A stretch of DNA of 64,000 nt, from contig NC_088320.1 in assembly GCF_910592395.1 (NCBI RefSeq), positions 4,464,001 to 4,528,000 on the forward strand, written 5' to 3'. Position 1 is the stretch's first letter; every line of letters begins with the position of its first letter. The DNA is from Lineus longissimus. Taxonomy: Eukaryota > Nemertea > Pilidiophora > Heteronemertea > Lineidae. The notes under the pieces were generated by a model. That model did no database searches and was not told the DNA's origin. It was given only the letters and a program-made list of their open reading frames with translations. Below, piece after piece: positions 148-64,000 of this stretch. A program made the translations under genes and the position numbers.

Positions 148-3618
<3,471 letters not shown>

Positions 3619-26731: not shown

Positions 26732-29700
26732 ATGGCTGGTAAGGAAATCACTGGATGAATTTTGCTGACATTTTCATTGTTTTATAATTGCTGGTCGCTA
26801 TTGCTCAATTGGACTAATTATAAGTATTATGCTAGCCTCTGTCATTTCTAAAGAAAATCACACCACAGTTATTGAAGTAAAAGCAACATGAAAAGTTTCT
26901 CAACTTAGAGCAAATGTACATATGTATAGTATCATCAGTGTAAAAATGTAGGCTGTAACATATTTAATAACACCTTGAGATAACATTGATTTAAAATTTT
27001 TCTGGTTCAGCAACACGAACAAGAATTAAGATTAAGAAGCCGGAGGGTGATGAAGGTGGATTAGTAGTCACAACTATCACCGAGCCAATAGATCCACCAC
27101 CAGATGGCAGTGGCACAGAAATCAGTTCAACAGAGATAAGGACGCGAGGACCAGGACGGTCAAGGAAGGAGGGAGATTCCCCTGTACCAACCAAAGAGAA
27201 GAAAAAGCAGTAAGTCCTAAACAATATTAATGTCTAATTGCTGTCTCATGAATGACATGAGAAGTTGCAAAGGGGAGAGATGACAGAGTGACATTATAGT
27301 ATACATGTTCACTGATATTTTTAGTTTTGCTGTACGCTCAATGCCATGTTCATTTCCTTGTCATCTTCAGCAAGCACAAAAAACACAAGCGCCACAAACA
27401 TGAGAAACATCATCATCGCCATCACCAAGACCTAGATGCGCTGCCGAGTACCAGCACAGATACGAGCATTGCTGCAGAACCATCATCGGCAGAGACGACA
27501 AATCAGGGAATTGAGGAGGAGAAGATGGAAGAAGATGGGGCGGAGGCGGAACCGGCTGGAGAAACAGCAACTGCAACAACTTCAACTGCTGGAGCGGCAG
27601 ATGACGACTTTGATGCAACCTTTGATGATTTTCTGAAAAGTTTATCTGGTAAATGCATAGAGTTATAGATCTTTTGCAGATTCATGGAAGTTGTCAGAAA
27701 TTTCATCAGGATCATGTTTGCATGCATAACGATTGCTCTAGAACAATGTGTCTTTCTATCATCCTGATCCACCTGTAAATATAATGAACATGAACAGCGT
27801 TCCCCTTTAAAAATCATTGAATGATTTTATTATATTTATTTCCTTCAGCTCCATCCCAGATCTCTGAAACTCAAGCTGCAGCAGAGAAGATGCTGGCTGA
27901 AGCTGATGAAGAAGCGTGAGTATTGAATAACCGTGTTGATTTGTTTCAAAATAAAACAACCTTTTGTATCAGTATCTGGTATCTGCAAATATCGAAGATG
28001 TCTTATTCTTTGGTACATGTTGAGTGTCCAAATCAACTGAAAGATGATATTAGCCCAGAAAGCAAGAAAGTTGTCTCTTATTTTCAGGCTTGGTATTCTG
28101 TGCTCATTGTGTAACTGCGGAGAGAGAAGTCTCCTTGGCCAGGGTGACATGACCCAATATGAACCGACCCCCAACTTCAACCATGTGCAGGCATTCAAGA
28201 AACTTGTTGCAGCCAAGGGGACAAGGCGGTCATCATCTGAGACAGACAAGGACATAAAGGAGAAAGAGGGCGATATAAGTCCACCATCGCAGCCAAAGAA
28301 GCCAAAAATTAGATCGCAGAGGTGTGTTTCTGATATGTCTTAAAGGGATGTTATCCTGCATTTGTAATGCTACCCTCTTCCCGTTATTCCTTCACTTATA
28401 GGCGGGGAGAGCCTGTTAAGCCTATTCAACTACAGATATTAAGTTAACTGCTGTATGGAAAACACATTTTAAAATCAACCTGGGATAACTGTGGTACACA
28501 TAGAGGTGTGTTCGTGTACAATTTCCATTCATCTTAATCAGTCTTTTGCTGACAAAGTCACAACCAGAATGCTGGGATAAGGGCACTTTAAATAAGTATG
28601 GACAGTAACTGTAACAAAGTCGGAATTTAAAACTAATGATGTTTTTTGTCTCTAGGGAGAGGAGCAAATCCCCACGACGTCAGGCTGGTGCTTTATCGGG
28701 GCGTGCCGGCCAGGATGACCGCAACAAATATATCCCCGACGAACTAGCTATGGTCGGTTACCTTGAAGATACAGATGTCCTAAAAGTATTTGACGGGAGT
28801 TTTGTCGCGTCTGCCCATCATTGTTGTGCTGCCTGGTCTGAGGGCGTCATTCAGGCTGAGGATTATACATTACAATATGTTGATAAGGCTGTCATAGCTG
28901 GTTTAACTCAGGTAAGTGTGTAATATGCTTTTTCAGTTTCGAGTTGGGTTGAAAATTTGACACATCTGTTTTTGAAGATTTTTCCAGAAAAAGAGGTTCC
29001 TTGGTCCATTTCTGATATTATATAGTGAAATTCTGCTGTGATAAGTTTGAACCTTTTCTTTTGCAGAAATGTCACTACTGTCAGCGGTATGGTGCTACAA
29101 TATTCTGTCGTCATCCAAAGTGCAATAGAAAATATCATTATCCATGTGCTCCAGCCAGTGGATGTTTTCAGGTAAACGTTGATATCTTTGTCTGATCAGT
29201 TTTCGGTTAGTGGGCATTGTCTAAAGTCACTGTGCTAAAGTCGCTGTTTGTTACTCTTTCAATTGATCCCATTCTTTGTCCTTCCTTGCATCACTCTGAC
29301 CGCCAGCGGCCAATGTCATTGTATCTCTTGTTCCATTCCAGGACATCAAAACCATGTCATTGCTGTGTCCAGATCATACCGACCTAGCTGAGGACATAGG
29401 TAAGTCAGGCACTTTACGTCATATCGGATGGTAGAGGTCTTCATTTTTCATCTTCATTTTTGAGGGTAGGGTAGAGATTCAGAATGAGATAGGGGATGAA
29501 TCCTGATGAACTCCACTCGTGATCGTGTCTTTGAAACAAAAATGTGTAAATCTATATTCATTCTTTTTCTCTGCATTTCAGCTGGTATGGAGTCGTTCTG
29601 TGTTGTCTGTGACACGCCAGGAGACATCCTCGAGCAGCTCTTCTGTACTAGTTGTGGTCAGCACTACCATGGTAACTGCCTGGATCCGTCCGTGGAGATG

Positions 29701-32700
29701 AATCCTGTTGTCCGGGCAGGATGGCAGTGTCCTGAATGTAAGATATGCCAGACATGCAGGTAAGGCTTACATTTCTTTTTAAAATTCTTGGCTTGTCTGC
29801 CTTGTCAACTGGCAACTATCCCCCCCCCAACCGGTTTGGCATTTATTATTTGGGATGGCACCCTACAGTCTTGCCTATATCTCCCTTTAACAAATGATGC
29901 AATATTTCATTCCTATCTTCCCCCTTGATAAGTCTTTTCATTTTCTCAGGCAACCTGGAGATGATAACAAAATGCTTGTCTGTGACACATGTGATAAAGG
30001 TTACCATACGTTTTGTTTGCGGCCTGCGATGACTACAATACCAAAGAATGGCTGGAAGTGCAAGGTATGTTGCTCTAAATGCTCTTTGCTGATAAGTGAA
30101 AGGGTTGGGACAAGCCAGATACCGCAGTGTCCTTTAAGTGAGGCTCACGGCACAGAATGGAGTGGTTACTGAAAGAAGATAGGGTGACCGGTGGCGAGTG
30201 GTTAAGAGTACTGTGCACATAATCAGCAGGTTGTGGATTCGACTCTTATTTTCGCGACCTTTCATTCTTTACATAAACTTGTGATACGTTTTTCTTCTTT
30301 TCCTTCAGAATTGTCGCGTATGCGGTGACTGCAGTTCCAAAACGGCCGGAATCAAACACACTGCAAGGTGGCACCTTAATTACACAGTATGTGAAAGCTG
30401 CTACCAGCATCGAAACAAGGGCCAGTCCTGTCCGGTGTGTCAGAAGGCATACAGCGCGAAAAATATCACCCACCTCTCCATGGTCAATTGTCAACTTTGT
30501 AAGAGGTAAGAGCTGATAGTGATGTCTTTACAATTTCTGTCAAGTGCCTGTGATAATCATGTAAAGCTTAAAAATATTTAATGTCTTAACCAACTTCGTA
30601 TTCCTACAGGTATGTTCATTTGGAATGTGATGAATCGGCGGAGTTCTCCGGCTCCGAAGCAATGGCAGCAAGAGCGTGTTACGTGTGTCCAATGTGTCAT
30701 GACAACGAAAGTAACAACGACGCGGTCGAGGATGCAAATCTGACGGACAGTCTCACGGCGATGATCGATCAAACAGATCTGAAGGATTTCGATGCCTTGG
30801 ATTTATTTAAAGGTGAGAAGTGAACAGTGCAGCCAAAAACCAACTTCATATTCATGTGCAGGTGACGTCATGACAGAAAAGATGTAATATTTACGTCTTG
30901 ACTCTAGACTAAGGAACTGGCGTCAATTTCAAGGATAGAATTTATCATCTGTGCCACTGGAACAGCTCAAGTAATTGCATTGTGTTGGGTTGCGTACCTA
31001 ATCTCGGCATCCTTATGAATTTTGTATTGACCTTGTCCATTTATAATTTTACAGATACTCAACCCTATCATGGTGCAATGAACAATTCGCAGGATTCCCT
31101 ACTTTTGAGCGAAGACTCGTTACCGATGGACGTAGATGGTGAAAAGGTAAGATCAGCCATTGTACAATGCATGCTCCCTCTTGACTCGTACAATATTGTC
31201 TGATCGGATTAAATGCATGCTCCCTCCCGGAGTTACCATGCCCTTTTTATGATTATTTTCAACCCTGTATTCGGTGGTGTTGGCAAAAATTTACCATCTC
31301 AGTCATTGTCAGGAAATGTGTGCTTTTCGTTTAGTTAATGTTGGCATAATGGGTAAACTTAAAAATCTATGCTTTAAGTGTCGAAACTCCACTTTGTATC
31401 GTGATGAAAGAAATGTTACCTTGCCAAGTTATAAAGTGCAAATCTCTTGGATTTTCATAAAGATTCTCATTCACCAATAGTACTATTTATAAACATTCAG
31501 CGAGTTAATTAAACAAGTGTAGTTAATTTACATTGTGTATGAACCTTGAATCTAATGCTTTGGAGCAGGACTTTTATCAGACAGTTTTGTGATCAATTGA
31601 AAAATCTGACAATTGGTTGTTGGCTGTTCAAATTCAAATTCCGATCAAGCGAAACCAAGTCACTCCCCAAAGTGATCATTTTAATTTTAAGTGGTATCTA
31701 TGAGCCGCTTTTACAGTGTAGTGACCATCATTCACTCTTTCAAAGTTTGTCCCCTGAAGAACTGGCACGTTAGTGCTTTAAACTTGGATCACGTGAATCA
31801 CATCAGAATTTGAATAGCCGCATCGATTCATGATTTACTGCATCCTTCACCGTTTTTTTCTGTTTGTCTATGTATAACAGTTGCACGAGTTTATTGATTT
31901 TAACATCCCTCTGGTGGTGCCCTTGGTAGAAATAGCCCATGTCTTCATAACTTGATACAGTTACAACGTTAAGGGTGGATCCTCTGGTTTTGATTAGATT
32001 TAGATGGTTTCAAATTCAACTGCCTAACTTTGGGGAAGGGGAGGTAATGTGACTGCCCATGTTATTTCATCATATCCCTTGTTAGCACTGACAGGTATCA
32101 AGTTAGTTGACATGGGATAGTTTGGTTGATAGCTAGTACTAGTAGATGGTATTTTAGTCGCACTGGTATTTGTGCACTTGATTTCTGGTGATGGAGTTGC
32201 CAAGTAGGACTGAAATTTCACCCCGACTTCGAGCAAGTTTTTAGGCTGCAAATTGTATTGGAAGGTTCTAATTTGGAATGAGAAACAGTCATTTTTGACG
32301 TGTTGGTTGACTTTTGGTCAAGAGCTACATGTATGAAGGACCTGCTTTCTGCAATTAGTAAATTGACAACAAAAAAGGTGAAATTTTAGTCCATCTTTGG
32401 GCATGAAATCAATGGCAGGTAACAATGGTTACTGTCAAAACAGACATTTGCATTGCTGATTATGTAATTCTACCATCCAGGGATCTAGCTGTGATGTCAC
32501 ATATGATTTATTGAATAATTCAGAAAGGATCAACTTGCATTTTCATTTTGGAATTATCTGTCTAAAAATAAAACTTCAATTGTTGATTTCCGACTTGGGC
32601 TGGAAGATTTAGAAAGTTGGAGGTTTCGATTATTGGAGTCTATTTATACCCAGACGTTGACACTGGAAACCTAATAAATAAGTGAACAAGACGTCTTTTG

Positions 32701-38700: not shown

Positions 38701-41700
38701 GTTCTGTTTAATTAGTTTGACATTTTTCTTGCTTTGTTTTTGCAGATGACTCTCAGGATGAACTTGAGATGCCTTCGGAAGGCCACGGCAAAGATAACCT
38801 GACAGAACGCTTTGATCAGATGCTCGGCAATGTGGGCAAGTCGCTTGATGTCGATAAGATGCTATCTGAAGGTACGTTCTAGATAACGGAGCATCATCTA
38901 GAATGTGATTCTCGAAAATCTTCGGTCCTTTTAGTGTATGTAAAGTCTCCTTTCATATCAACGATGATGACCAATAAAAAATGTTTTACATTTTCCAGGC
39001 CTTGCTCAAATAGACAGCAAGATGGTTGAAGATATCTTCAAGGGTGTGCTGAGCCCTCACCCGAGCTCGACTAGCCCTGCTGCTGACCAGGCTGGCACCT
39101 TCACCCTACCGCCAATACCTGCTACGATGCCCTCGGGGCCCAGACCACAGCCTCCCACCACGCTGGCACCATTCAGTATACCTCCAGCACAGCAGGGGTT
39201 CCATGGTGGAGACTTCAGGTGGGTAACTTTGTGAAACTAGATGACCGTTTGATTATCATTTCATGAAGAGGATGACAAAAAAGTTGGGAGAATCGCCGAT
39301 TAACTTCACCTGTATCAATATTGATATTGTCCTGGACATTATAGAACGTGCCATTCTATTTTCCAGTCCACAATTCAGTCCAAGTTTCTCAGATGCCCCT
39401 GGTGCCCCCATGTGGCCCGGCCAAGACGACAATGAGGAACAACTCTCCTACAATAAACGCAACATCATGAAATGGGAAAAAGACGAACCTCTTGGAGATA
39501 TGTCATCTATATCTCCCGTTCTTTATGCAAATATGAACCATCCTGAACTGAAGGCGCAATACCCAGACTGGAACGAACGGGCCAAACAGATCGCAAAGAT
39601 ATGGCGTAGGGTGCCTCCGGATGCAAAGACTCCTTATTTGGTGAGTGTTGTTTGTTTGTCAAGCTGAAAACTTTGCCATTGTTAATTTTAATGGATGTCG
39701 TCTGCTCAATTCCTGAACTATGTTCATTATTCAAACACCTATTTCAGGCCAAAGCTCGTGAGAACCGTGCGAGCAGCAGACTGCAGCGCACTGCAAAAAT
39801 GGTCATACCGGAACAGCCAAAGCCTGTTCCAATGCCGCCAATGATGGCACCAACTCGTGGCCCAGCAGGTCAGATGCTACCACCACCCCCGCCACGACAG
39901 AAACAGATGTCAGTTGAGGAGAAGTTCATGAAGGAGCAGCGGGCGATAAGGGAGCAGGAGCAGGAGAGGCAGTGGAAGCACCTGCAACAGATGAGACATC
40001 AACAGGCGCAAGAACGTAAGATCGATGCAGGTACGCTTAGTAGATGAATCTGAGATGATGTGTAGCCCGCATCACCAGATTCTAATCCTTTACTTTGCAA
40101 TCAAAGCAACTTCGGTAGAGGAAAGAGCTCTGTTATCTAACAAATTGCTCAAAATCAACCACTGGCTTCTGTCACTACACAGGTGGCACACACAAGTTCA
40201 TAAATTAGGAGAGATAGCAAATCATTAGTGCGAGAAAATTGAGAAGAGCTCTGTGTTAGTATTCTCCGAACTTTAGAACAACTTTTGGCTTCTATTTGAC
40301 CACTTTGGGCTTCACTTGTATTGCAAATGTTTGAAAGTTACCTGTAGTGAAAGTGACTTGTGGCTTGGATCATAATGAAACCTTGGTTTAGGAAGAAACT
40401 GAACAGATTTCATGTTAGTGCGATGTTGTGTTTTGTGTTGTAAAATTAACTGAATTTGCTGATATTTTCTAGGTCTTTTTGTTTGTTCCTTTACCACATG
40501 AATTCATTTTGCTTTATTGCAGTAATCAGTAAAGTCATTGCCGACGGTGAAGAGATGAGTTCGCCCCAGGGTGTCATGGGAGGTATGGAGGGCGAGGCTG
40601 GCTCACAAGGTCAAGTGAGCCGTGAAGGTTCCTTGCCGAGCACACCAGACTCCATAGGACCACAGTTTGTGCCCCCGACTTCAAAACCAGGCCCGCCTTG
40701 GGATCGTGATCCATATGCGTTGCCTCCTGGAACACCACGCCCGGTACCGAGTGTTGAGCAATTTCCTGGACCCAGACCGCCTATGGATCCATATGCCCAT
40801 CAGCCTGGAACACCTCGACCCGAGCCACAACCCCGACCCCCAATGGATCATATCCGACCGATGGGACCACATGACGGTTTCCAGGGTATGCCCCGCCCAA
40901 TAGATCCATATGCCCTTCCGCCAGGAACTCCAAGATCATCATCATCATTCACAAGACCTTCAGGACCCCGAATGGAAAATGTGAGCCAACCTCAGCTTAT
41001 GCCAAGAATTCCAGATGAGATTATGCGAGCGAGGATGGCGCAAGCAGCAGCAGAAAACTTCGGTCATCAAAGTCCAAGATCAGGAGCACCACCTTTCCCC
41101 TTACCCGGGCCACGAACTGGTGACCCATTTGCTCAAGGTCAGCGAAAGCCCGGACCACAATCTGCCATGATTGGACAGTTACGCATGCAGCGACCACCTA
41201 GATTGCAAATGCCAGATTCGTTTGGGCCCCGGGGGCCGGGCGTTGGAAATATCCGACCACCGGAATCGTTCCAGATACAGAATCACCCCAGCGGGCCTGG
41301 CCCACAAGATGCTTACACGCAACAACCAGGTACGCCAGGATCGCTTCCAAAGGACCCATTCGGGCAACAGCCATCAACACCACGGCCTGTATCAACAGAA
41401 AGTTTCTCTATGGGGCAGCGTCCGCCAGATCAATTCATCCCCTCGCTTTCGCGGTCGTCGTCCCAAGAGTCGTTCACGCATCAGCAGACGTCGCAGGCCA
41501 GCCCAGTCGGATCGTTTCCGCCCGGAGTAGAAGGTCAGGATGTTGATCCAAACCTGCAGCAGATTCTCAGTGGGGAGAGGAGCCATTTCATGGAAGACAA
41601 GCCGGTAAGAAGTTTTCTGCTTTTCCAGATTTATCTGCACTCTCGTGCACGTTGAAAGTTCTTAGATTGGTCTTTATTTTGACCATTTACTTTTATTGAA

Positions 41701-44700: not shown

Positions 44701-47700
44701 GCTGCCGACCAAGAAGCACAGAAGCAGGACATCCAACGTCACCAGTTGCGTGAGCTCCTTGCCAAGCAGACTAAGGAACGTCAGAAACAAAAAGAGCAGG
44801 ACCGGTTGATGCAGGAACGATCACAGATGCCCTTGCGCCACTGGCCTTCGCAGGAAGATGTGCCTGGGCAAGGTAAACAAATGAAAATTTTCATACCAAT
44901 TATTTATCACAACTTAATATTGGCTATGGTCTCTTTCTCCTGAACAAGAGTTTGTTATTAAACTACCTCCTACTACATGTATGTAAGTGTTGTAAACAGA
45001 GAACACAACGTACAAACTTCTCTTTCAGGTTCCTCATCGCAACCTCAAACGCCAATGTCGCAGTCGTTCCCCTCACCTGGTGTTGATACTAGACCCCAGG
45101 GGCCTGGCTTCCCAGGCCAGTTCGGACCCAGGATGATGGAGAGATGGGCAGACCAGCCTCAAATGATCAGGCCACCTCATCCGAACCAGATTAGACCAGG
45201 TATGTGAAACTTCAAGCAAATTTCATATTGATCTCTTTGAATTGAAGATGTTATTGCAAAAAGGTGATCAAGTTAAGAGATGTTATTGTGAAATTTTTGC
45301 ATTTTGTCTGAATTGGATTCCTCTCAATCTTTCAGATGGTGGACAGTTCAGCCCCCACGATGTTGGTCCACGTGGTCCTTTCTCTGGAGAATGGCGAGGT
45401 CCTAGGCCTGGGCAGCCAGGTCACCCGATGGGTCCAAGGATGTCACCTGGCCAGATGCCGCAAAGAGGACCTGGCTTCATTGAGCTACGACATCCACATG
45501 AACCTGGTGACCATCCAAGGCCACCATTCATGCAGATGGTTCCGGAACGCATGCGTGGCCCTGCACCTGGACTACCGTCACCAAGGACGAGTATGCCTCC
45601 GGGTACTCCGAATCCATTGGATCCTTTTGATAGTATGGTGGTGCGCCAGCAGCAGCAGCAGCGCATGCCAGGAATGGAGCAGACGGTGCGCTTGAGCCAT
45701 ATGCCAGATAAGCAAACCATGGGGATGCCACCTGGGTCTTCAGCAACAACGGTCAGCCAGACAATGAGTAGTCCAGTTCGGATGCACAGCCAGCAACTTC
45801 CGGTAACTATGACAGATACCACTGTGGGACAGCAGATGGCTTCAGAGGGTACTCAACAACAGCCTGGGCCGGCAAGAACTCAAACAGACAAACCGAAGTC
45901 AGATGTCCTTGATGAACCAAACGATGGGGAAATTGATGATTTGCTTGGGGCAGATGGATCATTTAATCTCCTAGAATATGCTGATCCTGACTTGGACAGT
46001 GCTCTACATGAGGCCACCCAGGATAAGAGCATATTTGATGAGCATCTTGGACTCAAAAAGCCAGATAAAACCGGGAAGGAAGAGGAGAAAAAGTCAGAAG
46101 AAGGTGTTGCAGCTGATGCGGTAAAAACTGAAATCAAGAGTGAAGATGGAAAAGATGACAAGAGTGATGATGGGTCGAAAGATTCGGCTGATCGTGCAAA
46201 ACAGGTTGGCGATTTCCAGGCGCAGTTTTTAGCATTCTCACGTCGAATGTCTGAAAAAGATACTGATAAGGAGGGTGGCGAAAATACAGAGGGAATTAAG
46301 AAGGAAGAGATGGTTATGGTGAAGCAAGAGAGGCCAGGATCAGCCGTGCAGAGTCCCCAGATGGCTGCGATCAAGCAAGCTGCCTCGGCCCAGATGAGTC
46401 CAACTTCCCCTATGGTTTCAACACCTTCGCAGGTTGCATCCCAAAGCCCTATGCACAGCCCCCAGATCAACGCCTTGATGCAGATGTCTCCACGGCCAGG
46501 TTCGCATACACCTTCGAGTATTCCCTCTCCGTATGCCCAGCCTCCGGCCCAGATGTCTCCAAGAATTGGTGTCCCTTCGCCATTTTCTCAGAAACCAATG
46601 TCGCATTCGTCGAGCATGCCCCCTACTCCTTCGTTCTCACCGTCTCAGACTGGTAGCCCTAATATGACCGACAGAAACACACCGAATCAAACTGCAATGC
46701 TACCATCACCACAGCAACAGATGCCACCAGTTCGTCCACCAGTACCAAGTTCCGCACCGAATGCTGCAACAACCCATAGCGCCCTCTCGCAGGCATTGGC
46801 ATCACCTTCAAAAGCAAGTCAGGGTCTCCTACCCCAGGAGCAACAAATGTTAGCAATGGTTCAGCAAAGGTTGCAAGGACCCAGAGGATTCCGGCCACCT
46901 TTTCCGATGCAGAATAAGCCGTATCCGCCAGGATCCAAGCCAATGCAGCGACCAATGGGACAACAACCAATGCAGAGTGGCCCAGGAGGCAGAATGCCTG
47001 GTCCAGGTGGCCAAATGGGACCCCGTGGTTATATGCCTGCGTCGCAAGGGATGATGCAACGTATGCCCGGGTTTCATCCGCGTATGATGGACCCACGTAT
47101 GATGGACCCACGCATGATGGAACAGCGTATGATGGAACCACGCATGATGGAACCTCGCATGATGGAACCACGCATGATGGAACCGCGCATGATGGAACCG
47201 CGTATGATGGACCCACGTATGATGGCTGGAGGGTCTGGGATGCAAGGTGGACCTGGTATGCCGCCGAGAGGGCCTCCTGGTATGACGCCTGGTCACGCTA
47301 CCCCTCCTGGGATGAGCCCCGGAGGCAGTCAGGTTACACCGCCTGGAACACCTGGTGCCGGACCAAGACAGCCGATGATGATGCCAGGGGCTGGTGAGTG
47401 CAATTTCTTAAAACCATTTTAGCATTGGGAAGTTTTATGGCAAGTGTATTTTGCTTGTAATGATGATCTCTTCTTTACTTCGTTTTGTACCGAAACAAAT
47501 AGTTTTGAACAAAATCTGTCTGGGAGCCTATGTCAATGAGGTCGAGTCGGAGTCAGACTGAAACAAGGGTAGAAGGGCATATTGGAGCACATTGCTGAAA
47601 CATCCTTGGAAATCTTGTTATGTCTGTTGTCGCCTCCTGTCAAATACTAACACATTGGCCCTTTTTCGTGTTTTCAGGCCAGGGTATGCCACAACGGATG

Positions 47701-50700
47701 CAGATGCCTCGTAACCCATCACCAATGATGTCACCGACCCAACAACAAACCAGAGAACAAAAAGAGCGTGCCCTGCTTCTAGAAGAGCAGCCGTTGTTAC
47801 TAGAAGACCTTCTGGAACAGGTAGGAATTAGCTTCACTTGTGGAATGAATGTGTGGGCCAGCATTGACTCTTTGACGACTGAGAGTACTTTGAAATGTGA
47901 AATTGACAAAGGGCAGAGTTATAAAAGTGGGGAAGTGGGGCTATTTCTAAGATGCAACCATCTTGGCCTGCAGAATCTGGGGACGAATTTCTGTGAAAGG
48001 AGCCCCGGCTTGATGAATGATGTCTGGTGAGGTCATTCAAAGTCAAATTGAACACGGAGCTCCAGTTAGTTCTTGTCAGTTTAATTCGACTTGAAAACAT
48101 TCTCAAAATACTCTGGTCGTCTCCGAGTTCACAAGTTTCTCGTATCCTGTGCCAATTTCTGAATTGTTCATTGATTTTGATTATGATTTTTTTCATGCGA
48201 GAAAGCAAACTGGGACTGTTTCAGCCAGACCAGAGAGATCAGTGTGGTGTACTTAACCTTTTTAGTCCCAGGGGTATAGCATGCCCCCTGCCCGGGGCAT
48301 TTTTAGCAACACACAGCCGCTTCTTATTTCTGGATGCAGCCATGTGTTTCAGGTGCAAATTGATGGATCATTAAATTGATGACCACAGCACACACTGGTA
48401 TATTGGTTTATTTTTCAAACAAAAGGTGGCAGCACCTGTCACAATAACAAATGTACAAGGCATGGTTGGTGGAATGGCATCCCGCTGTGGGCAAATACAA
48501 TGGTAACTTATGCGGGATGCTGTTCTGCCTGGGGACTCAAAAGGTTAAAAGATCATTGAGATTAGTGCGTACCGGAGTGGCGATTCAAATATACATGTAC
48601 GGTACCAGTTTGGGGCCATTGGAAATTGACAACAGTCTTTCCAGAATCCTTTGTGGACTTGTGAAATTGAGGGGCTAAACGGGTTCAAGGGCACTCCTAC
48701 AATTCCTTTGACTCTCAGTTTCACCTGCCCTTGCCAATGAAGAAATTCCCTGCTGATTTTAGATGAAATCGTCTAAGTTTGCTCTTTCCACACTTGGTGA
48801 CATAAATTTGTTTATTCTGCAATAATTTGTGCTTAGGTACGTAAACACAGTCGCATTATAATGGTGAGTTTCTTCCTTAAAGACGATCTCGATATTGTAC
48901 TTGTGATGTTAGAAATTGTGGTGCAGAAACTGCTATCTATATTGAAGAACTCCTCACATAATCTTTCCGAACAGGCGAAGAAAAAATTATACCCAGGTAC
49001 TTCTGCTGCTGCTGTTGATGATGATGATGTCAAATGTTTCATGTTTCTTGTTGTCTTAAAACCTCTGCTTTCTGCTATGTGCCTCCCCTGCTTCTATGAA
49101 TAGCGATGAGACTAAAACATTTCTATTTCTCATGAATGACACAATTACTACATACAAAAATGCCAATAATATGAGTCTTTATGCCATAGTGGATTTAGGT
49201 GTAACTTCTGTAAAAATCCATTGAAAATGTTGAGCTGCAGGCTCATGTCAATTTTATACTGAAAAGTCAGGTAGTGTTGGACAGCCTGCAGTTCTGCGTC
49301 ATGTCTCACGGTCTCATCTCTGTTAGTGTAAGGTGTCGCTATCGGCCTACCATGTCCCATGTTAGCTTATCATTGGTGACTACATAATGTCTGCTGGTGT
49401 TGATTGACCGGTGGCACAGTGGTGAAGATCTATGCCTTATGCCTGCAGTTGACTCTGTGTGTGACCAAGGTTCAGTTCCCAGCCCAGTTCCGGGCAAATT
49501 TACCCCGAGTTCCTTCCGTGGTTAAGCATTCATCCCTTCATAAAGGCCAGTGTCAGTTTTAGCTTCATCCTTTCTTCTAACTTTCTTTGGCGTTTTGGGT
49601 ATTATCGATTGTTCTCTGCGATTTAGGTAAAACTTATCCATTAATTTGAGCTGTAAAAGCCTAAATTGCCGAGAAACAGTGAATAGTCTCAAAATAACGT
49701 CTTTACGTTCTCACCTCCGCAGCTTCCTAGCTCTTATTTGCAACCAGGGTCTTATCTTTAGGTATGCATGATTGTTTCAGGAGAAGATCGAACAGCGACA
49801 CCAGCAGGAACAACAAGCCATCATGCAAAAGCAAGACACTGGTCTACTCTCGGATGCAGACTTCGAGAAGTTGCGTGCTGACGTCATGGGTGATGTTCCC
49901 AGGAAACCATCGCCGTTCCCGATGGGACAGCCCCAAGGACCGCCAAGAATGATGTCACCGCAGTTGGAGGCAGCGCGAATGCAGCACATGGGGCCTCAGG
50001 GAGCTAGAGATTCAGCCCAAACCTTTCCTAGAGGGCCACCTCCAGCGTATCCTGGCCCACAGATGAGTTCCAGGACGCCATCTCCGTTTGCTGGCCCTTC
50101 TGGAATGTATCCTCCCGCGCACAGTCCGTCGATGCCACATGGGCCTCCAGGAGGACCCCCTGGACCTCCAGGTTGGTTGACATCTAACGGTACCAACACA
50201 GTGAAGTACATCAGCATTTTTGAACCTGCATCAGCCTAATTTTGTGTGGCCCGGTAATAGATGGAATGGCTGAAATTTCCTTGGGGGTACATCAAGAGTC
50301 TTCTTTTGCGTATTTTTCTGATCCTGTTTACTGATTCATTTGAATTTCAGGACCGCCTGGAGACCACATGGGTGACCCTGACCGCAAACAACAAGCCCAG
50401 TACGAAGAATGGCTCATGCACCAAATGAATGTCCACAGCATGCAGATCAAATACCTTGAACAACAAGTCGCAAAGCAGCGCAAGGCCAAGAAAGCGCTGA
50501 ATGCACGCCAACGCCAGGCAAGGAAGGTTGGCTCTGAGTTGAGCGAGGCTGATGCGATGGATTTGGACCGTATTGGGCAAGAACAGGCCAATATGCAGAA
50601 AGAACTGGATCAGGTGCGCAAACAGCAACGACAACACCAGATGGTCATGCAGGATTATCGAACAAAACAACAGGTATGTTCTTTATGATAATAGAGAGGT

Positions 50701-56700: not shown

Positions 56701-59700
56701 TGGAATATGTGTATAGTGTAAATAAACGTCTACATCATGAAGATGTTAGCAACTTTCATTGCGTATATATGGTTGTATCGCTACCAGGAATTGTGTTGAT
56801 TCTCAGTAGCTTCCTATCCCAGGTTGACCAAACCTGTTTATGGGTATCCAGTATGAAAATTCTTTATTTGCTCTCTGAGTCTTTCTGCTTTCTCTTGGTC
56901 TGAGTGATAGCCTTTTCTTAATTGCATATAAATGTCTTAAAGCATCAGTTTTGGGACAATTTAAGAAAATTCTTCCTCATTCATTCAGAGACCCTACTTC
57001 TAGGAGTTCTTAAGTAGTTGTACAACATCTCAAAGCTACTGGCGAGGGGGGGGGGGGTTATTACATCTCATTCAAGTGAACCATAGTCTGTGTCTCAAAT
57101 GTGATGACACTGAAGTACTTTCTCACTATTGTACTTGAAAACAGTGTATTCAGTTAACTCAGTCTATTTATTAGGCCCTTGTAACAAAATTCTCTTTGTA
57201 TTCCAGTGCCAAATGTGCCTTCAGGATTCAAGCTGCCACCCGGTGAAGCACCATCTCCTGGACAAATGCCCCCAGGTAAGTCAAATGCCCCAACTGAAAT
57301 AAAGCGTTGCTGTTTCTGTTGAAAATGTTCATTCTGTTTGAAAAGACCATGGGTGACTTTCTACTGGGCTGCCCAAAAGTATACAACTGTCCAGGGTCCA
57401 CCTTTTGAGCAGCAACAGTAACCACATTATTATCTCTACAAGGTTTCTACCAGTAAAATATGTCCCATCAGCAGCTACCAACAGATATATTGAATGCAAC
57501 TTCATCGCACCCCACATTGCAAGTCCATCTCAAGTCAAAATCATATTGGATTACCGGTACCCCCTGACGCCACAAGTGATGATAATTTTTTGGCTGTGCC
57601 AGGACAGAGTCACCTATGCGTCTTACAAGTACAAGTAATGCAGTCAGGACAACATGCCTGCTGTTGCTTCTGTGGTAGTTACAATACCTTACACATCCTT
57701 GTATAGATGGAGGCATAAAATTCAACTGTGCCGTCACCTGTCGGCAATATTGTATAGCTTTTGCTCATTGGAGCACAGTGCTTGTGGGGCTTGGACTGCA
57801 AACCTCAACTCCTGCTTGGTGACAAATCATGGTGTTAGGCTGCTGAAACTCTGGTTTCTGTATTGCATGATGTCATTCAATCATTGATTAAATGAATTGC
57901 TTACCCTCATTAAGAGGGCAGGTGCCATTTAGGTGAAATCAATTTTGCTGGTAGGGAAAATTTTGCCATTTGGTTGGAGTTTTGTTCTAGTCTCTGCAAC
58001 TGGAGGCTGGAGCAGGGTTCCTGTGGAGCGTCCAATCTCCACCACTGGCAGACTTGTCCCATCTTACGGCAGTCCGGTAAAATGGCACTTTTCGTGATCA
58101 CTTCATGTTCTATGGATATATTGGCAGAGTTCACCAACCAAAAGTTCTTGCACTAGCAATGTTTATTTGTTAAGTTCGCACATGTTGCAAACACTGCATG
58201 AGCCTTTCCATTTCTCGTACAGGGTTTTCCATGTTGCCCCATTTCCCTTCACTAGAGGGAGCCGGCTTCCCAGGTGAGCCGAGCAAACTCGACAAACCCA
58301 AGAAAAAGCGCAAGAAACGTACAAAGAAGGGAGACCAGCTTGCCGAGGGAGCACCGGCTGCCGCTGCTCTGCCATCACTCCTCGGTGTCCTAGGTTCGTG
58401 GGTGCTTCCATAGTGTGGCCAAACATTTTATTCTAAATGCCTAATCGATCGATGCTTTGCATGATATTAGTCTAGACATTTCTAACCATCTTTCTCAATC
58501 TTGATAAATTTTGTTTGCATTTTGAGGGATCAGAAATTTTTTGTCTTCATCTTTAGGGATCATGCAGTTTTCGTCCTTATCCTATGGATAACATTTGAAT
58601 TCAGGTTAGAGGCCATAACATTCAAACATGGACTCTGACACACACCAGCATTTTCCTTATTAAGTATGCTGCATGCCGGGTACTGATAATATATTGAAAG
58701 TGACAAACTATCTGCATTGCTCATTTAAGAGAAATAGTAAAATGCACAATAAAAGTGACTAAATTCATTTTTGCTGGGACAGTCGCTTCAACTTAGTTTG
58801 CAGTTTTTTCCATTCATTATAAACATCATTGTTAGGGTGTCCCTAAATCTTGGTAACATCCCTTCTTTGGGGATTACTTCACTATTTTCTTTCGGTTGCC
58901 TGCTTTTAAATCTCACAATCCTTTCTAATTCTAAAATTTCAATAAGATTGACTTTTCTCATTTTAGCTTCTTCCATTTGATTTGATAATATTTTTTCTCC
59001 AGTGGTTTTTCCCCTCTTGAAGCGAATGTGTTTTGCATGTGGAAATGACCCACCGTTTGGTGGATTTTACTAATATGCCACCAGACGTCATAAGCGATGT
59101 GGCTCAGTTCCTGATATTTGGTTGACACACCACCTTAAAACTATGGGATCCATGGAATAGTAAAAGAAAGAAGAAGAACTTGTTTCCCATCTTGACGATG
59201 TCATTTTATCAAGTTTCGAAATTGGAGTTCCAGGGGTTTAGATGCTGCCATTTTAGAATGATCTCTTGGCCACACTATGTTGGTTAAAGAAGAAGCTCTG
59301 TTCAGCATTAAAGAAAAAATATCCTGTGATTTACTGAGAGGAATCAAAAAATTGCTGAGCAGTGCCCCTTTGAAAGCATCTTGAACTTTTCTTACCATAT
59401 CTTTTAACCATATTTACTAACTGAGCTTTGCTTATTCAATACGGACGCTTGAAATGTACATGTTACGAGAGACAAACTGTATCATAGGATACATTATTTC
59501 AGCACTGAAATTCAGACTCCTTTCAAATGTTCACTGAAAATAATTTATAGCTGTCAAGTCTTTGGAGTTAAATCCACCCTCGTAATGTGTATGTTTTCTC
59601 TCTGCTTTCCTTTAACTTTGCTTTGTATTTCTAATATAATGTAATTTACAGATTATCGTGGTCGAGTCAAAGCTTAAAGCTTAAAATTGGTTGGCTAGAA

Positions 59701-62700
59701 TGTTCCCGATGAAAAGTGATGTTCTCAATATTATCTGTGTCTAAAGGAAAGTGATTATATTCACCAACTTGCCTCCAAATGTCAAGCCTCAATATTGCCT
59801 ATTTAGATTCATGTATCAATGTAGCACCTTCTTATCATTTCAGGCTCATCTCCCACCATGTCAAACACGCCCATGTCCACATCTGGATCAACTGTTGGTA
59901 CCCCAACAACATCACAACCATCCACACCCTTGAGTGCGCCACCGAACCCAATGCAGAGTGCAGTAGAACCAATGGATACCAATAGCCCTCACAGTCAACA
60001 AAGTGTTCCAAAGCTAGAGAGCGAGATGAAGTCTAGTCCAGGTACTGCTGTTGGACCTGAGGGAGAGGTTTCAAAGGTCTCGCCGCCGGTGGAGGACAAA
60101 GATGCTTGTTCAGATACGAAGAGTAGTGGGGAAAGTAAAAGTCAGGAATGTACAGACGGAAAGCATTGTGGAGATAATGAGGGTTGCACAGATGGACAAC
60201 ATTGTGGAGATAATGAGGGTTGCACTGACGGACAACATTGTGGGGAGAATGAAAATCAGGAATGCACGGATGGAAAGCATTGTGGAGAAAATGATAAACA
60301 GGAGAATGAAAGGCAGGAATGCACGGATGGAAAGAATTGTGGAGAAAATGATAAACAGGAGTGCACAGACGGACAGCATTGTGGAGAAAGTGAGGGTTGC
60401 ACAGACGGACAACATTGTGGAGAAAATGAAAATAATGAATGCACAGATGGACAGCATTGTGGAGAAAGTGAGAGTTGCACAGATGGCCTGCATTGTGGAG
60501 AAAACGAAAATCTGGAGTGCGCAGATGGACAGCATTGTGGAGAAAGTGAGGGTTGCACAGACGGACAACATTGTGGAGAAAATGAAGGGTGCACAGATGG
60601 CCTGCATTGTGGTGAAAATGAAAATCAGGAGTGCACAGACGGACAGCATTGTGGAGAAAATGAGGGTTGCACAGACAGACAACATCGTGGAGAAAATGAA
60701 GGGTGCACAGATGGCCTGCATTGTGGTGAAAATGAAAAGCAGGAGTGCACAGACGGACAGCATTGTGGAGAAAATGAGGGTTGCACAGACGGACAACATC
60801 GTGGAGAAAATGAAGGGTGCACAGATGGCCTGCATTGTGGTGAAAATGAAAATCAGGAGTGCACAGACGGACAGCATTGTGGAGAAAATGAGGGTTGCAC
60901 AGATGGCCTGCATTGTGGTGAAAATGAAAATCAGGAGTGCACAGACGGACAGCATTGTGGAGAAAATGAGGGTTGCACAGATGGCCTGCATTGTGGTGAA
61001 AATGAGGGTTGCACAGACGGTAAACATTGCGGAGAAAATGAAGGGTGCACAGATGGCCTGCATTGTGGTGAAAATGAAAATCAGAACTGCACAGATGGAC
61101 AGCATTGTGGAGAAAGTGAGGGTTGCACAGACGGACAACATTGCGGAGAAAATGAAGGGTGGCCAGATGGTAAACATTGTGGTGAAAAAGGAAGTCTGGA
61201 GTGCACAGACGGAAAACACTGTGGGGAAAACGAAGGTCAGGAGTGCACAGATGGAAAACACTGTGGGGAAAATGAGAATCCTCAAGATTGCACAGACGGA
61301 AAGCATTGTGGTGAAAATGAAGGTCAGGAGTGCACAGACGGAAAACACTGTGGGGAAAATGAAAGTCAGGAGTGCACAGACGGAAAACATTGTGGGGAAA
61401 ATGAGAATCCTCAAGATTGCACAGACGGAAAACACTGTGGGGAAAATGAAAGTCAGGAGTGCACAGACGGAAAACACTGTGGGGAAAATGAAGGTCAGGG
61501 GTGCACAGACGGAAAGCACTGTGGGGAAAATGAGAATCCTCAGGATTGCACAGACGGAAAACATTGTGGGGAAAATGAAAGTCAGGAGTGCACTGACGGA
61601 AAACACTGTGGGGAAAATGAAGGTCAGGAGTGCACAGACGGAAAACACTGTGGGGAAAATGAAAGTCTGGAGTGTACAGACGGCAAACATTGTGGGGAAA
61701 ATGAAGGTCAGGAGTGCACTGATGGAAAACACTGTGGGGAAAATGAGAATCCTCAAGATTGCACGGACGGAAAACACTGTGGCGAAAATGAAAGTCAGGA
61801 GTGCACAGACGGAAAACATTGTGGCGAAAATGAAAACAAGGAGTGCACAGACGGAAAGCACTGTGGGGAAAATGATAGTTGTACAGATGGGAAACATTGT
61901 GGTGAAAATGATAAAGAAGGCTGTACAGATGGGAAACATTGTGGCGAAAATGACCAAAATGATAGTGGTAATCAAGGTGCTAGTACTTCTCAGTGTAGTG
62001 ATGGTTTGCATTGTGGAGAAAATGAGGGTGAAAATAATCAAAATCCTCAAAATTCAGGGAACACTGGCAGTAGTGAAGAGACTAACCCTCAACCTTCTGA
62101 GGTGGAGATGCAGGAGATGGCATCAGAGGGTGCCAATAGCTCTGAGATGGATAACATAAGCAGTGGCTGTTTGGAGGTGAGCGAAGGCGTGTGCAGTGAT
62201 GGTCGTAATTGTCCTGGAAATGATGAGGAAAAACAGCAACAAGAAGGCTCCAGCGATGTTGAGCAGACGTCAAGTGTTGTTAACATTCCAGTCGAAGCAG
62301 ACGACACACCAATGGAAGTGGTTGAGGAACAGATCATTGAGGAGGTCCCTGTAGATGTGCCAGTGTCTGTCGAGGAACCTCCTGAAGCGATTGGAATGGA
62401 CTTGTCTATGCCACACCAAGAAAAAGGTGAAGACTTGTCAATACCAGAACAGGCTCAAGAGTCTCGGGCAAAGTCTGCTTCAATTGATGTTACTCCAGTA
62501 GCTGCTGATGTAGCTCTAGAAGCTTCAGCTGTCGTTTCTCCTCCTCCTCCTCCTCCTCCTCCTCCTGCTAAAGAGGAACCGCAGGCAGATTCTTCCATTG
62601 ATCTTCCCATTCATCTCTGCGAATCGCCTAAAACACTGCCAGCAGATTCAATGCAAATAGCTCAAGACTTGAGTGCCATTCCACTTCCTCCTAGTCCTGA

Positions 62701-64000
62701 AGGTCTTGGAACTGATATGCCATCCATAGAACCATCATCCCCTGCCCCAGCTCCTTTTGAGCAAGAGCAACAACTGCCAATTCCATCTGCATCTGAGTCT
62801 ACTCCATCATCACCACCAGCTGAGTCTGCCGTTCTGCCTCCGATTTTACCAGAGCCCTCACCAGAACAGATGCCCGAAGTCAGCCCCGACTCTACACCTA
62901 TGGATCTCTCAGTACACAGAGAACAACCAGAACCAGCACATCAGCCCCATCAAGCTGAAACTGCCTTTGAGGTAGAGCATGTAGCAGGAGAGTCACCTGA
63001 GGCTGTTCCTGAAGACTTGTCCATGCATGCTCCAATCAAATCTGAATTACCAGCGAGAATCACGGAAGACCCGAAGCAAATTGTGCCATTAGAGCCCAAG
63101 CGTGAGATTGGTGAACGGGAAATGCCTTTGCGGAGTCCGTTAATTCCCAGTCCTGCCCATGCTCCAGAGATGATGAAGTCTCCAAAACATCCACTGCCAT
63201 CTCCCACAGAACACCGACCATTATTCACGCCTCCTGCTGCAGAAGGTTCAAAATCGCCAAAAGCTGGGTCATCACCAAGACGATCACCTGGCGCTGTGAC
63301 ATCACCAAGAAGATCGCCGGCTGCTCATTTATATCCGGCAGCGTCTTGTCCATTGACTGGTCAAGTAATGGCAGACGTTAAACCAACTGCCAAGGAGTTG
63401 GAAAGAGCCAGGCCAGCTTCCCTTCCAATACCTGAACCTGTACATGTGAGGGAGGACATACGCATTAAGACTGAGCCTTCTGAACCTTCAATATGCAGCT
63501 CACAGCGTTCAACGCCTTCTAGTTACCTGCCTATGCCTGCAGTGGCAACTAGCCATCCACCGACCAGTCAACTCCAGCGGCCATTGTCCCATCCTGGTCA
63601 TGCCATTGGGCCAGCTATGGAAGGAATCCCAATTGAAATGCAGATACCTCGGTCATTGCAACGGGCAGTGTCACCTAGGATGTCGATTCCATCAAGTTTG
63701 CCCATGTCTGCATCTCATGCCATGGGTACTCACCATCATCCCGGGGTACCTCCTGGACATCCCATGTTTGGCCAAGCACGCATGCCAGGACAACCTCATC
63801 TTGTTCACAGCGGGCAGGGGCAGGGGCAGGGTGGCCATCCTCATTTCCATGGGCAGCGTATGCCCATGCGACCATTTGGGCTCCATCCTCATGTAAGGAC
63901 GTCAGTACCTCATCAGTTTTCTGGCGGACAGAACATGCAAACATTCCAACAGCGGCCTTCCATGTCACAGATGCAGCAGACAATAATGAGCCGTATGTCT
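26732..64000 (+). CDS. KMT2C/D: Histone H3K4 methyltransferase KMT2C/KMT2D (MLL3/4) orthologue, 3'-partial
   Basis: Catalytic scaffold of the COMPASS-like complex that monomethylates H3K4 at enhancers. Forty exons join in phase: 26732-26738, 27011-27209, 27371-27648, 27849-27915, 28088-28321, 28656-28911, 29067-29171, 29342-29399, 29582-29759, 29950-30064, 30309-30505, 30610-30812, 31055-31146, 34137-34253, 35504-35674, 36011-36115, 36302-36483, 36620-36897, 37073-37381, 37578-37853, 38036-38263, 38424-38525, 38746-38871, 38999-39218, 39367-39640, 39748-40030, 40523-41604, 44692-44872, 45029-45199, 45336-47393, 47678-47820, 49781-50171, 50351-50673, 50841-50958, 51365-51960, 54248-54350, 55146-55358, 57207-57275, 58223-58393, 59844->64000. 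That is 4812 codons. Order of parts: ePHD1, PHDs 2-4, PHDs 5-7, HMG box, PGTPRP repeats, coiled coils, disordered exon. FYRN/FYRC and SET lie past the edge. The 7-nt first exon (MA plus one base) is the least certain. Confidence 0.95.
27011..27915 (+). other. KMT2C/D N-terminal basic and His-rich segment (exons 2-4)
   Basis: Residues about 3-184 precede the first zinc ligands. Exon 2 is basic (TRTRIKIKK, TRGPGRSRK). Exon 3 opens with a Lys/His block (KHKKHKRHKHEKHHHRHH) that could bind nucleic acid or metal, or act as a nuclear signal. An acidic stretch DDDFDATFDDFLKSL follows. Vertebrate N-termini are poorly conserved here, so function is open. Confidence 0.75.
28088..29399 (+). other. KMT2C/D extended PHD finger 1 (exons 5-8)
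   Basis: Residues about 184-402. Zinc-ligand patterns CSLCNCGERSLLGQGD, AHHCCAAWSEGV, KCHYCQRYGATIFC, KYHYPCAPASG and LLCPDH are seen. They match the N-terminal ePHD of KMT2C, including the diagnostic GERSLLGQGD and YVDKAV words. All Cys/His ligands expected for an extended PHD seem present. Exon 5 ends in a Ser/Lys-rich linker. Confidence 0.9.
29582..30812 (+). other. KMT2C/D PHD fingers 2-4 (exons 9-12)
   Basis: Residues about 402-632. PHD2: FCVVCDTPGD, FCTSCGQHYHGNCLD and WQCPECKICQTCR. PHD3: KMLVCDTCDKGYHTFCL and WKCKNCRVCGDC. PHD4-like: CESCYQH, CPVCQKAY, NCQLCKRYVHLEC and YVCPMCHD. These fingers in KMT2C/D read histone tails. Exon borders fall between zinc ligands at conserved phases. 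Confidence 0.92.
30184..30260 (+). repeat. tRNA-derived SINE-like element, short copy
   Basis: Starts GACCGGTGGCGAGTGGTTAAGA (A-box-like TGGCGAGTGG) with a B-box-like GTGGATTCGACTC at about 30233-30245. It lies in the intron between exons 10 and 11. No full tRNA cloverleaf is supported. Confidence 0.45.
31147..34136 (+). other. 3-kb intron of KMT2C/D (between exons 13 and 14)
   Basis: No exon or gene is supported. It is AT-rich unique-looking sequence with short random open frames. Flanking exon phases match without an intervening exon. Confidence 0.65.
34137..37381 (+). other. KMT2C/D basic linker and PHD fingers 5-7 (exons 14-19)
   Basis: Residues about 664-1050. Basic Gly/Lys-rich exons 14-15 end in STVVLCSSKDELVLQQ, conserved before this cluster. 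PHD5: MCLACGSFGVGEEGKLISC and CGQCYHPYCVSIK. PHD6: CTVCEGCGKPHDEGRLILC, CDISYHIYCLDPPLDHVPKG. PHD7: WCAVCVTCGTT, CGPCASYSSCPSCQRKY, CTQCDRWLHAMCD and YQCMFC. Exon 19 is Pro/Glu-rich, then has DGIQLSENGFAHLKSITVES, a segment also conserved in KMT2C/D. Confidence 0.92.
37578..39218 (+). other. KMT2C/D linker between PHD7 and HMG box (exons 20-24)
   Basis: Residues about 1051-1368. Recognisable family blocks are HRKPGIGGFIPR, NYPSYLQEAFFGK, DEEILGMIGDDF and KMVEDIFKGVLSPHP. Exon 20 begins with an Asp/His-rich run (DPHDDDDHEHDHEID). The remainder is probably disordered. No enzymatic domain is present. Confidence 0.85.
39367..40030 (+). other. KMT2C/D HMG box (exons 25-26)
   Basis: Residues about 1368-1553. 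The block KWEKDEPLGDMSSISPVLYA, then YPDWNERAKQIAKIWRRV and TPYLAKARENRASSRLQR, matches the KMT2C/D HMG-box region, which in family members contributes to chromatin binding. A Gln/Glu/Arg-rich coiled-coil-like stretch (EEKFMKEQRAIREQEQERQW) follows. Confidence 0.9.
40523..41604 (+). other. KMT2C/D exon 27 with DPYA-PPGTPRP repeats
   Basis: Residues about 1554-1914. Pro/Gln-rich and disordered. Irregular repeats DPYALPPGTPRP, DPYAHQPGTPRP, DPYALPPGTPRS, DAYTQQPGTPGS and DPFGQQPSTPRP are present. This repeat is a hallmark of the KMT2C/D family and strongly supports the gene assignment. The exon ends at a GTAAGA donor after EDKP. Confidence 0.9.
41605..44691 (+). other. 3.1-kb intron of KMT2C/D (between exons 27 and 28)
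   Basis: No gene is seen. A stretch at about 43470-43640 has loosely repeated CCCAGTG/CCAGTG words, and the rest is unremarkable. Exon 28 uses an AAG-type acceptor at 44690-44691. The upstream TAG acceptor near 44669 would meet a stop at once. Confidence 0.6.
44692..47393 (+). other. KMT2C/D exons 28-30: coiled coil, GPRGP-rich region and acidic block
   Basis: Residues about 1915-2717. Exon 28 is a charged coiled coil (HQLRELLAKQTKERQKQKEQ) ending in PLRHWPSQE, conserved in KMT2C. Exon 30 is a single 2058-nt exon. It starts with GPRGP-type repeats. The acidic DGEIDDLLGADGSFNLLEYA and PDLDSALHEATQDKSIFDEH block is conserved with vertebrate KMT2C. SUMO-like sites VKTE, IKSE and VKQE, Ser/Pro/Gln-rich sequence and an RMM[D/E]P array follow. 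Confidence 0.88.
47081..47230 (+). repeat. Ten-unit coding array of the pentapeptide RMM[D/E]P
   Basis: A 15-nt unit (CGTATGATGGACCCA and variants) is repeated ten times without interruption. Nine units read RMMDP, RMMEP or RMMEQ, and the last diverges to RMMAG. It lies near the end of exon 30 in a Met/Pro/Gly-rich context. Synonymous variation among copies (CGT/CGC, CCA/CCT/CCG) indicates it is not brand new. Confidence 0.95.
48253..48548. mobile_element. MITE flanked by TTAA (piggyBac-type, non-autonomous)
   Basis: It lies in the intron after exon 31. It runs from TTAA-CCTTTTTAGTCCCAGG to CCTGGGGACTCAAAAGG-TTAA. The terminal inverted repeats start CC and are bounded by the TTAA duplication typical of piggyBac insertions. 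About 296 bp, no coding capacity. Confidence 0.65.
49405..49530 (+). repeat. tRNA-derived SINE-like element
   Basis: It starts GACCGGTGGC. An A-box-like TGGCACAGTGG (49412-49422) and a B-box-like GGTTCAGTTCC (49469-49479) lie about 46 bases apart. The sequence does not fold into a convincing tRNA. It shares its first ten bases with a second element at about 30186, suggesting a family. Confidence 0.5.
50841..51960 (+). other. KMT2C/D exons 34-35 with internal alternative donor
   Basis: Residues about 3004-3241. Exon 35 starts GQGNTARLPASVRLEYEAYM, a conserved KMT2C/D block, then becomes Ser/Thr/Pro/Gly/Gln-rich. A consensus donor GTGAGT at 51481 follows GGG in phase 0. The downstream donor at 51961 is also phase 0. 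Using the first would drop 160 residues in frame. Confidence 0.82.
51961..54247 (+). other. 2.3-kb intron of KMT2C/D (between exons 35 and 36)
   Basis: No gene or clear repeat is recognised. It is AT-rich and ends in a TTGTAG acceptor. Confidence 0.6.
54248..58393 (+). other. KMT2C/D exons 36-39, ending in a Lys/Arg-rich segment
   Basis: Residues about 3242-3426. Exon 36 encodes DNNPFSESYHDMERMRIQRQ, exon 37 a Met/Arg/Pro-rich stretch, and exon 38 a short Pro-rich one. Exon 39 holds PKKKRKKRTKKGDQ, a strong nuclear-signal-like basic cluster. Its end donor GTTCGT (58394) is weak. A strong donor GTGAGC at 58274 is in the same phase, so the basic segment may be optional. Confidence 0.78.
56206..56793. 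mobile_element. Large palindromic element with 226-bp inverted arms
   Basis: It lies in the intron between exons 37 and 38. Arms 56241-56466 and 56558-56783 are reverse complements with about eight mismatches (about 96% identity), around a 91-bp centre. An 11-bp direct repeat, ACCAGGAATTG, at 56206-56216 and 56783-56793 looks like a target-site duplication. Each arm contains CTGAAGA, a GGTTC/GAACC stem and GAAA, resembling a hammerhead core as carried by Penelope-like elements. It encodes no protein. Confidence 0.8.
58394..59843 (+). other. 1.45-kb intron of KMT2C/D (between exons 39 and 40)
   Basis: No exon, RNA gene or repeat is recognised. It ends in a TTTCAG acceptor. Confidence 0.6.
59844..64000 (+). 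other. KMT2C/D exon 40, open to the window edge
   Basis: Residues 3427-4812, with no stop in the splice-defined frame (codons starting at 59846, GGC TCA TCT CCC). Parts: a Ser/Thr/Pro lead-in (to 60148), the CTDG-x-HCGEN array (60149-62029), an acidic Ser/Pro-rich region with a Pro run from (CCT)8 near 62539-62562, repeated DLS motifs, SPRRSP repeats, SUMO-like IKSE and IKTE sites, and a His/Gln/Met/Pro-rich end. It corresponds in position to the long disordered exon of vertebrate KMT2C/D. Confidence 0.88.
60149..62029 (+). repeat. Coding tandem array of about 46 units of CTDG[KQL]HCGEN
   Basis: Each unit is 12-15 residues (36, 42 or 45 nt): CTDG, then K, Q or L, then HCGEN or HCGES, then a short acidic/Gln linker such as EG, ENQE, ESQE or ENPQD. 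Units 1-26 are mainly Q/L types with 12/14-residue alternation. Units 28-44 are K types with 14/15 residues. A break at the diverged unit WPDGKHCGEKG (61160) separates the two. A few units have lost the second Cys (HRGEN). A degenerate relative, CSDGRNCPGND, follows near 62191. Each intact unit offers two Cys and one His (C-x4-H-C). I know no such array in KMT2 proteins. Confidence 0.95.

Follow-up and report, generated by a model that had tools for sequence, protein, structure and literature searches.

The window, that is, the whole 64,000-nucleotide stretch of Lineus longissimus DNA analyzed here, carries on its plus strand protein kinase exons and, after them, an open frame of 577 residues that matches no Pfam family (283-3615; Pkinase, 74.5 bits at 283-654), a gene matching the proteasome families PSMD3-like and Rpn3_C (18678-21727), and, downstream of this neighbour, a KMT2C/D gene. 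Among the exons of the latter, one encodes a PHD finger (29582..29759, +; Pfam PHD, 40 bits), one an HMG-box-like stretch (39367..39640, +; Pfam HMG_box, 23.3 bits, just below the cut-off of 25.4), and one, in our exon model, a coiled-coil-like stretch belonging to no Pfam family (50351..50673, +). Farther downstream, the exon at 58223..58393 (+) joins without a stop to the exon at 59844..64000 (+), whose reading frame begins at 59846 after a 2-base split codon and which runs off the window. The joined peptide was found at residue 3375 of P0001, a predicted protein of 6313 residues (cluster of 15 member sequences) that contains the 1385 residues of the latter exon as a whole. Our home-made splice model and this database protein give the same frame, which bears out the splice-defined frame of the original prediction.

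P0001 has precomputed Pfam domains of the PHD, PHD-like, FYRN, FYRC and SET families, the last three lying beyond the window. Protein searches returned, with the queries counted, 2 matches out of 5269 candidates, 3 out of 171 and 103 out of 2211, giving 104 distinct proteins, of which two were KMT2A; the search reached proteins of 0.55-1.75 times the query length that shared exact words, and no oyster, octopus or brachiopod was among those retrieved. With residues 5560-6100 as a query, the 100 other KMT2C/D-like proteins scored 351-647 bits versus 139-141 bits for the two KMT2A proteins, and in a tree built from 36 of the 104 the window protein grouped with Owenia and molluscs (support 100/98). 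By scores and tree, the host protein is nearer to KMT2C/D than to KMT2A/B, in support of the KMT2C/D host of the original prediction, and the tree places it among spiralian KMT2C/D.

The exon at 59844..64000 carries a tandem array of 46 units at 60149..62029 (+), each consisting of a core C-T-D-G-[K/Q/L]-H-C-G-E-N-E and a linker, as defined by per-position counts, spacing and strict matches. The array spans 1881 nt or 627 amino acids, position 60149 being the start of the first core Cys codon, so that the coordinates and length given in the original prediction were exact, and all 46 units lie in this single exon and in the KMT2C/D frame. Both Cys are present in 43 of the 46 units, in line with the more than 40 predicted, His in 45, all three in 42 and Asp in every one; we define the motif by the features seen in these units, namely two Cys six residues apart, an Asp-Gly turn, His and a trailing Gly. 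The exceptions are CTDGKNC with Asn for His (60320..60340, +), CTDRQHR and CTDGQHR without the second Cys (60668..60688 and 60782..60802, +) and WPDGKHC without the first (61160..61180, +), all found by pattern match. A relaxed core pattern detected 47 units in the exon, the additional one being a stray, diverged CSDGRNC located 66 residues past the last array unit (62192..62212, +). Unit-to-unit gaps were 14 residues in 22 cases, 12 in 17, 15 in four and 19, 24 and 66 in one each, indicating that the array hides no further unit; Tandem Repeats Finder called the array under several overlapping periods. The whole protein P0001 contains 44 strict cores including the stray, where 0.005 are expected from composition. 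A 623-residue array stretch has a net charge of -130 and 89 Cys, and AlphaFold gave no fold for a 98-residue window piece (pLDDT 45.1) or for a 56-residue piece with 10 window rows (pLDDT 40.6).

Comparison of the units with one another showed a strong deficit of replacement changes in the core and selection acting on the protein. Over core codons 1-7 of the 47 units, pS was 0.62 and pN 0.078, giving a corrected dN/dS of 0.061 (unit bootstrap approximately 0.037-0.093), with the reservation that silent changes are near saturation, that tandem units share history and that the pattern used for picking units fixes some residues. This value is not near 1, in agreement with the selection on the protein that had been predicted, and it was 0.046 for the 27 distinct cores. 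When units were separated by length, the ratio was 0.088 in core codons 1-8 versus 0.175 in the linker for 12-residue units (14 distinct of 17), and 0.040 versus 0.490 for 14-residue units (19 distinct of 22); no replacement change was found among the four 15-residue units. At codons 1-8 of the 46 array units, departures from the majority numbered 29, 9 and 106 at codon positions 1, 2 and 3. The uncorrected pN/pS was 0.114 in the coding frame versus 2.46 and 1.41 in the other plus-strand frames, and 1.98, 0.235 and 2.96 on the minus strand, where the frame with 0.235 mirrors the codon positions of the coding frame; the silent-rich pattern is thus confined to the coding frame and its mirror. 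This frame control rules out a repeat at the DNA or RNA level that is open by chance, while homogenisation of tandem units can mimic constraint.

The original prediction named no comparable repeat in human KMT2C or KMT2D or in fly Trr/Lpt, but the view that nothing comparable exists was not supported: a search of the related KMT2C/D proteins with the unit, which it had proposed, did find relatives, the core being common to eight molluscs and one non-spiralian animal (P0090). The strict core C-x-[DEN]-G-x-[HN]-C occurs in nine of the 104 proteins (44 copies in the window protein, 24 in Dreissena, 31 in Pecten, 26 in Mya, 29 in Argopecten, 2 in Haliotis, 20 in Physella, 21 in Littorina and 7 in P0090), for which composition expects at most 0.006 per carrier. 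C-x-D-G-x-x-C-G was found in ten, i.e. the window protein, the eight molluscs (1 to 31 copies) and P0090, with Patella having one unit, CIDGHGCGTDDEDD. A core profile built from 17 hand-picked units of the nine strict carriers scored 27.8-41.4 in those same carriers, which is circular; Patella, the one carrier outside the build set, scored 10.4, and no other real protein exceeded -1.5 and no shuffled one 2.1. The shared core is followed by unlike linkers among carriers, such as GENE.., GTPPP.. and GTDDE.., and the CxDGxHCG core was found in none of the retrieved vertebrate and insect KMT2C/D proteins.

The position of the units was assessed relative to the coiled coil upstream and a block LTPEQQ downstream, which served as anchors and which a profile search placed in 98 and 44 of the 104 proteins, respectively; an earlier pattern-based search had found both in 3 of the 104. 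Units lie between the two anchors in eight of the nine strict carriers, that is, in all with both anchors placed (six by profile, P0002 and P0004 by pattern; P0090 is unplaced), and the interval contained 4-88 Cys in cores versus 0-8 outside in the six carriers measured. The notion of an insertion was therefore not supported, and an insertion private to the window species is ruled out by the relatives with the same core. Instead, we conclude with high confidence that the array consists of a short motif, shared with the KMT2C/D of other animals, in an expanded and partly homogenised run, a lineage expansion rather than a novel insertion. To judge from sequence comparison, the motif looks like a conserved, hitherto unnamed working part of KMT2C/D.

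Linkers were 62% alike in the window, 76% in Littorina, which has eight successive identical units, 80% in Mya and 90% in Physella, indicating that homogenisation plays a large part there. P0090 has units of C-[TSE]-D-G-I-H-C-G-T-D-[DS]-E, snails having mostly C-D-D-G-I-H-C-G-T-D-D-E, and its linkers of 17-38 residues are 43% alike (29% when shuffled), with cores 93% alike.

Looser relatives were also observed. Solemya has 48 units between the same two anchors, CTQPGQC (38), CTRPGQC (9) and CTGPGQC (1), spaced 13-14 residues and mostly followed by NTPPP, versus GTPPP in other bivalves; both Cys and the C-x5-C spacing are retained, with Asp, Gly-4, His and Gly-8 replaced. In the Solemya protein (P0005), a second repeat of the GHRPGTPGHQ kind follows the Cys array from about residue 4870 onward. 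The two crinoids share CDGIHGCPGD and a CCG-x-GNC some 110 residues farther on, in unlike surroundings (residues 2246 and 2355 of P0043, 2289 and 2397 of P0046), the sequence around them being otherwise diverged, and the Antedon loops lie upstream of the coiled coil, not downstream. When a loop pattern was applied to 96 of the 104 proteins (the eight array carriers excluded, and neither Cys-dense stretches nor the last 900 residues considered), it matched only Haliotis, Patella and the two crinoids. The crinoid loops may be akin to the array. The core profile misses Solemya and the crinoids, Anneissia scoring -3.4, below the best shuffled protein; the looser patterns find them. Common to the carriers and Solemya are two Cys six apart that flank a turn containing Gly; Asp and His are usually present as well. 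The C-x4-H-C spacing of the original prediction stands for most array units but is not universal, since Solemya has C-x5-C without His and His lies one residue earlier in Patella and the crinoids, so that the His looks less fundamental than the two Cys and the turn.

The interval between the anchors in the annelid Owenia, 594 residues long, contains no Cys at all; together with the single unit of Patella, this indicates that the motif can disappear or remain in one copy. The patterns used detected no motif in the remaining retrieved proteins. In the retrieved vertebrate KMT2C/D, patterns and profile gave no Cys loop except a single C-x5-C in four fish (P0086, P0098, P0100 and P0102); like a similar match in P0013, these are without the core and may be due to chance. 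Three of the fish KMT2C proteins share CSTPTRC (residue 5196 of P0098, 5330 of P0100 and 5619 of P0102).

As to the age of the motif, P0090 (EukProt) grouped in the 36-protein tree with the cnidarian-side rows Dendronephthya, Actinia and P0092 (support 100/100) on a long branch. Forcing it together with 10 spiralian rows was rejected (log-likelihood 58.0 lower, AU p 5.2e-6), in a test whose group was named after the tree had been seen and which involves that long branch. The presence of units requires at least three changes on the tree, unpolarised, with Solemya and Patella taken as carriers and Antedon not. Our reading of this distribution is that the motif is probably of old origin with losses, while a separate origin or a misassigned P0090 may account for it instead. 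A bolder proposal is that an ancestral metal- or thiol-sensing module of KMT2C/D predated the cnidarian-bilaterian split, was lost in vertebrates and arthropods, expanded in several spiralians to arrays of 20-48 copies, and links H3K4 mono-methylation at enhancers with the nuclear metal or redox state; this we regard as unlikely.

No Pfam family matched the window array or the arrays of two relatives at cut-off, weak matches all being below the cut-offs, and no PDB chain matched the array or the core profile. A known domain as the identity of the unit is ruled out by these results. None of ten literal motif strings occurred in the open literature, subscription papers and preprints being outside its scope, and topic searches there showed nothing on such a repeat among the matches listed. 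Several known systems resemble the array in part. The RNA polymerase II tail is made of tandem short linear motifs, with many copies, disorder, a constrained core and variable copy number; the array resembles it in these respects, but its core is made of Cys and His and is not known to have a reader or a modification. In zinc knuckles and classical zinc fingers, two pairs of ligands share a fold (C-x2-C ... H/C), and the unit has in common with them a short Cys/His spacing able to hold soft metals; with two Cys and one His and no C-x2-C, however, it falls outside that class. Metallothioneins likewise have many Cys in a flexible chain, whereas the array is a segment of a nuclear methyltransferase with regular units of 12-15 residues.

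Most work on KMT2C/D, which writes the enhancer mark H3K4me1, has been done in vertebrates and insects. A Cys-loop unit shared by distant animals and located in the disordered half of this protein would be a sign of a mode of input or assembly to which the usual models are blind, and copy numbers of 1 in Patella, 2 in Haliotis and 20-48 elsewhere would make a natural series for testing multivalency. In the mechanism that we propose, each unit would form a tight turn (Asp-Gly, or Pro-Gly in Solemya) holding two thiols six residues apart, usually with His beside the second, and could coordinate a soft metal (Zn2+ or Cu+). The good ligands of a single unit number only two or three, so units would pair within or between chains; present many times in a disordered, very acidic stretch, they could turn the region into a multivalent assembler that works at enhancers, depends on metal and owes its avidity to the copy number. 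Low-complexity regions of human KMT2D are reported to drive the formation of condensates and to have a stabilising effect on WDR5 and the enzyme complex (PMC8579673), and MLL4 condensates are cited in a review (PMC9974629). These human regions belong to the same family and are repetitive disordered stretches thought to assemble the complex (PMC8579673), the Lineus array differing in its Cys loops. Assembly is thereby made plausible, but the human regions are without this unit and so uninformative about it. Given the shared expanded motif, we place the soft-metal step close to an even chance or slightly under it, and the model as a whole, expansion of a conserved motif plus metal-dependent multivalent assembly, also falls somewhat short of even.

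The retention of both Cys and their spacing in the 48 Solemya units, where Asp and His are gone, favours a thiol-based role; on the other hand, we counted against the metal model that His is absent in the stray unit, in one array unit and in Solemya, that one Cys is lost in three array units, that the Owenia interval is devoid of Cys and Patella has just one unit, and that the low ratio extends to the linkers of the 12-residue units. Moreover, Asp-3 and the non-ligand Gly-4 and Gly-8 are as constant as the Cys, which multivalent docking explains equally well as metal binding: a conserved nuclear partner would read the reduced C-x-D-G-x-H-C-G, more copies giving more avidity with no need for metal. 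In favour of docking, the core is preceded by basic and followed by acidic residues in snails, Patella and P0090 alike, but flanks differ in bivalves and the window, no partner is known, and Solemya replaced precisely the residues other than Cys, so that we consider docking doubtful. The same retention of C-x5-C around an Asp-Gly or Pro-Gly turn in the array carriers including Solemya would suit a redox switch, in which oxidation would join both Cys of a unit in a disulphide loop of seven residues and thereby alter the compaction or contacts of the region; the near-constant His would be superfluous for a disulphide and the nucleus is normally reducing, which makes this reading improbable. Finally, the wide variation in copy number and linkers and the plain block homogenisation in Littorina, Physella and Mya are what slippage and conversion of units in a disordered region without any role would produce. 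Such tolerated expansion is already disfavoured by the silent versus replacement pattern in the core, by the same core in lineages with unlike linkers and by the far better kept core of P0090, and we hold it to be highly improbable.

Repeats of other kinds lie along the same region. The KMT2C/D gene contains a second coding repeat at 47084-47225, with a 15-base unit in 9.5 copies that reads MMEPR/MMDPR, and the array exon has a pure CTC run at 62538-62566 that encodes a proline stretch. Between the proteasome-subunit and KMT2C/D genes, a 216-base unit is tandemly repeated at 23525-25019 (435-base double unit, 3.4 copies, 96% matches).
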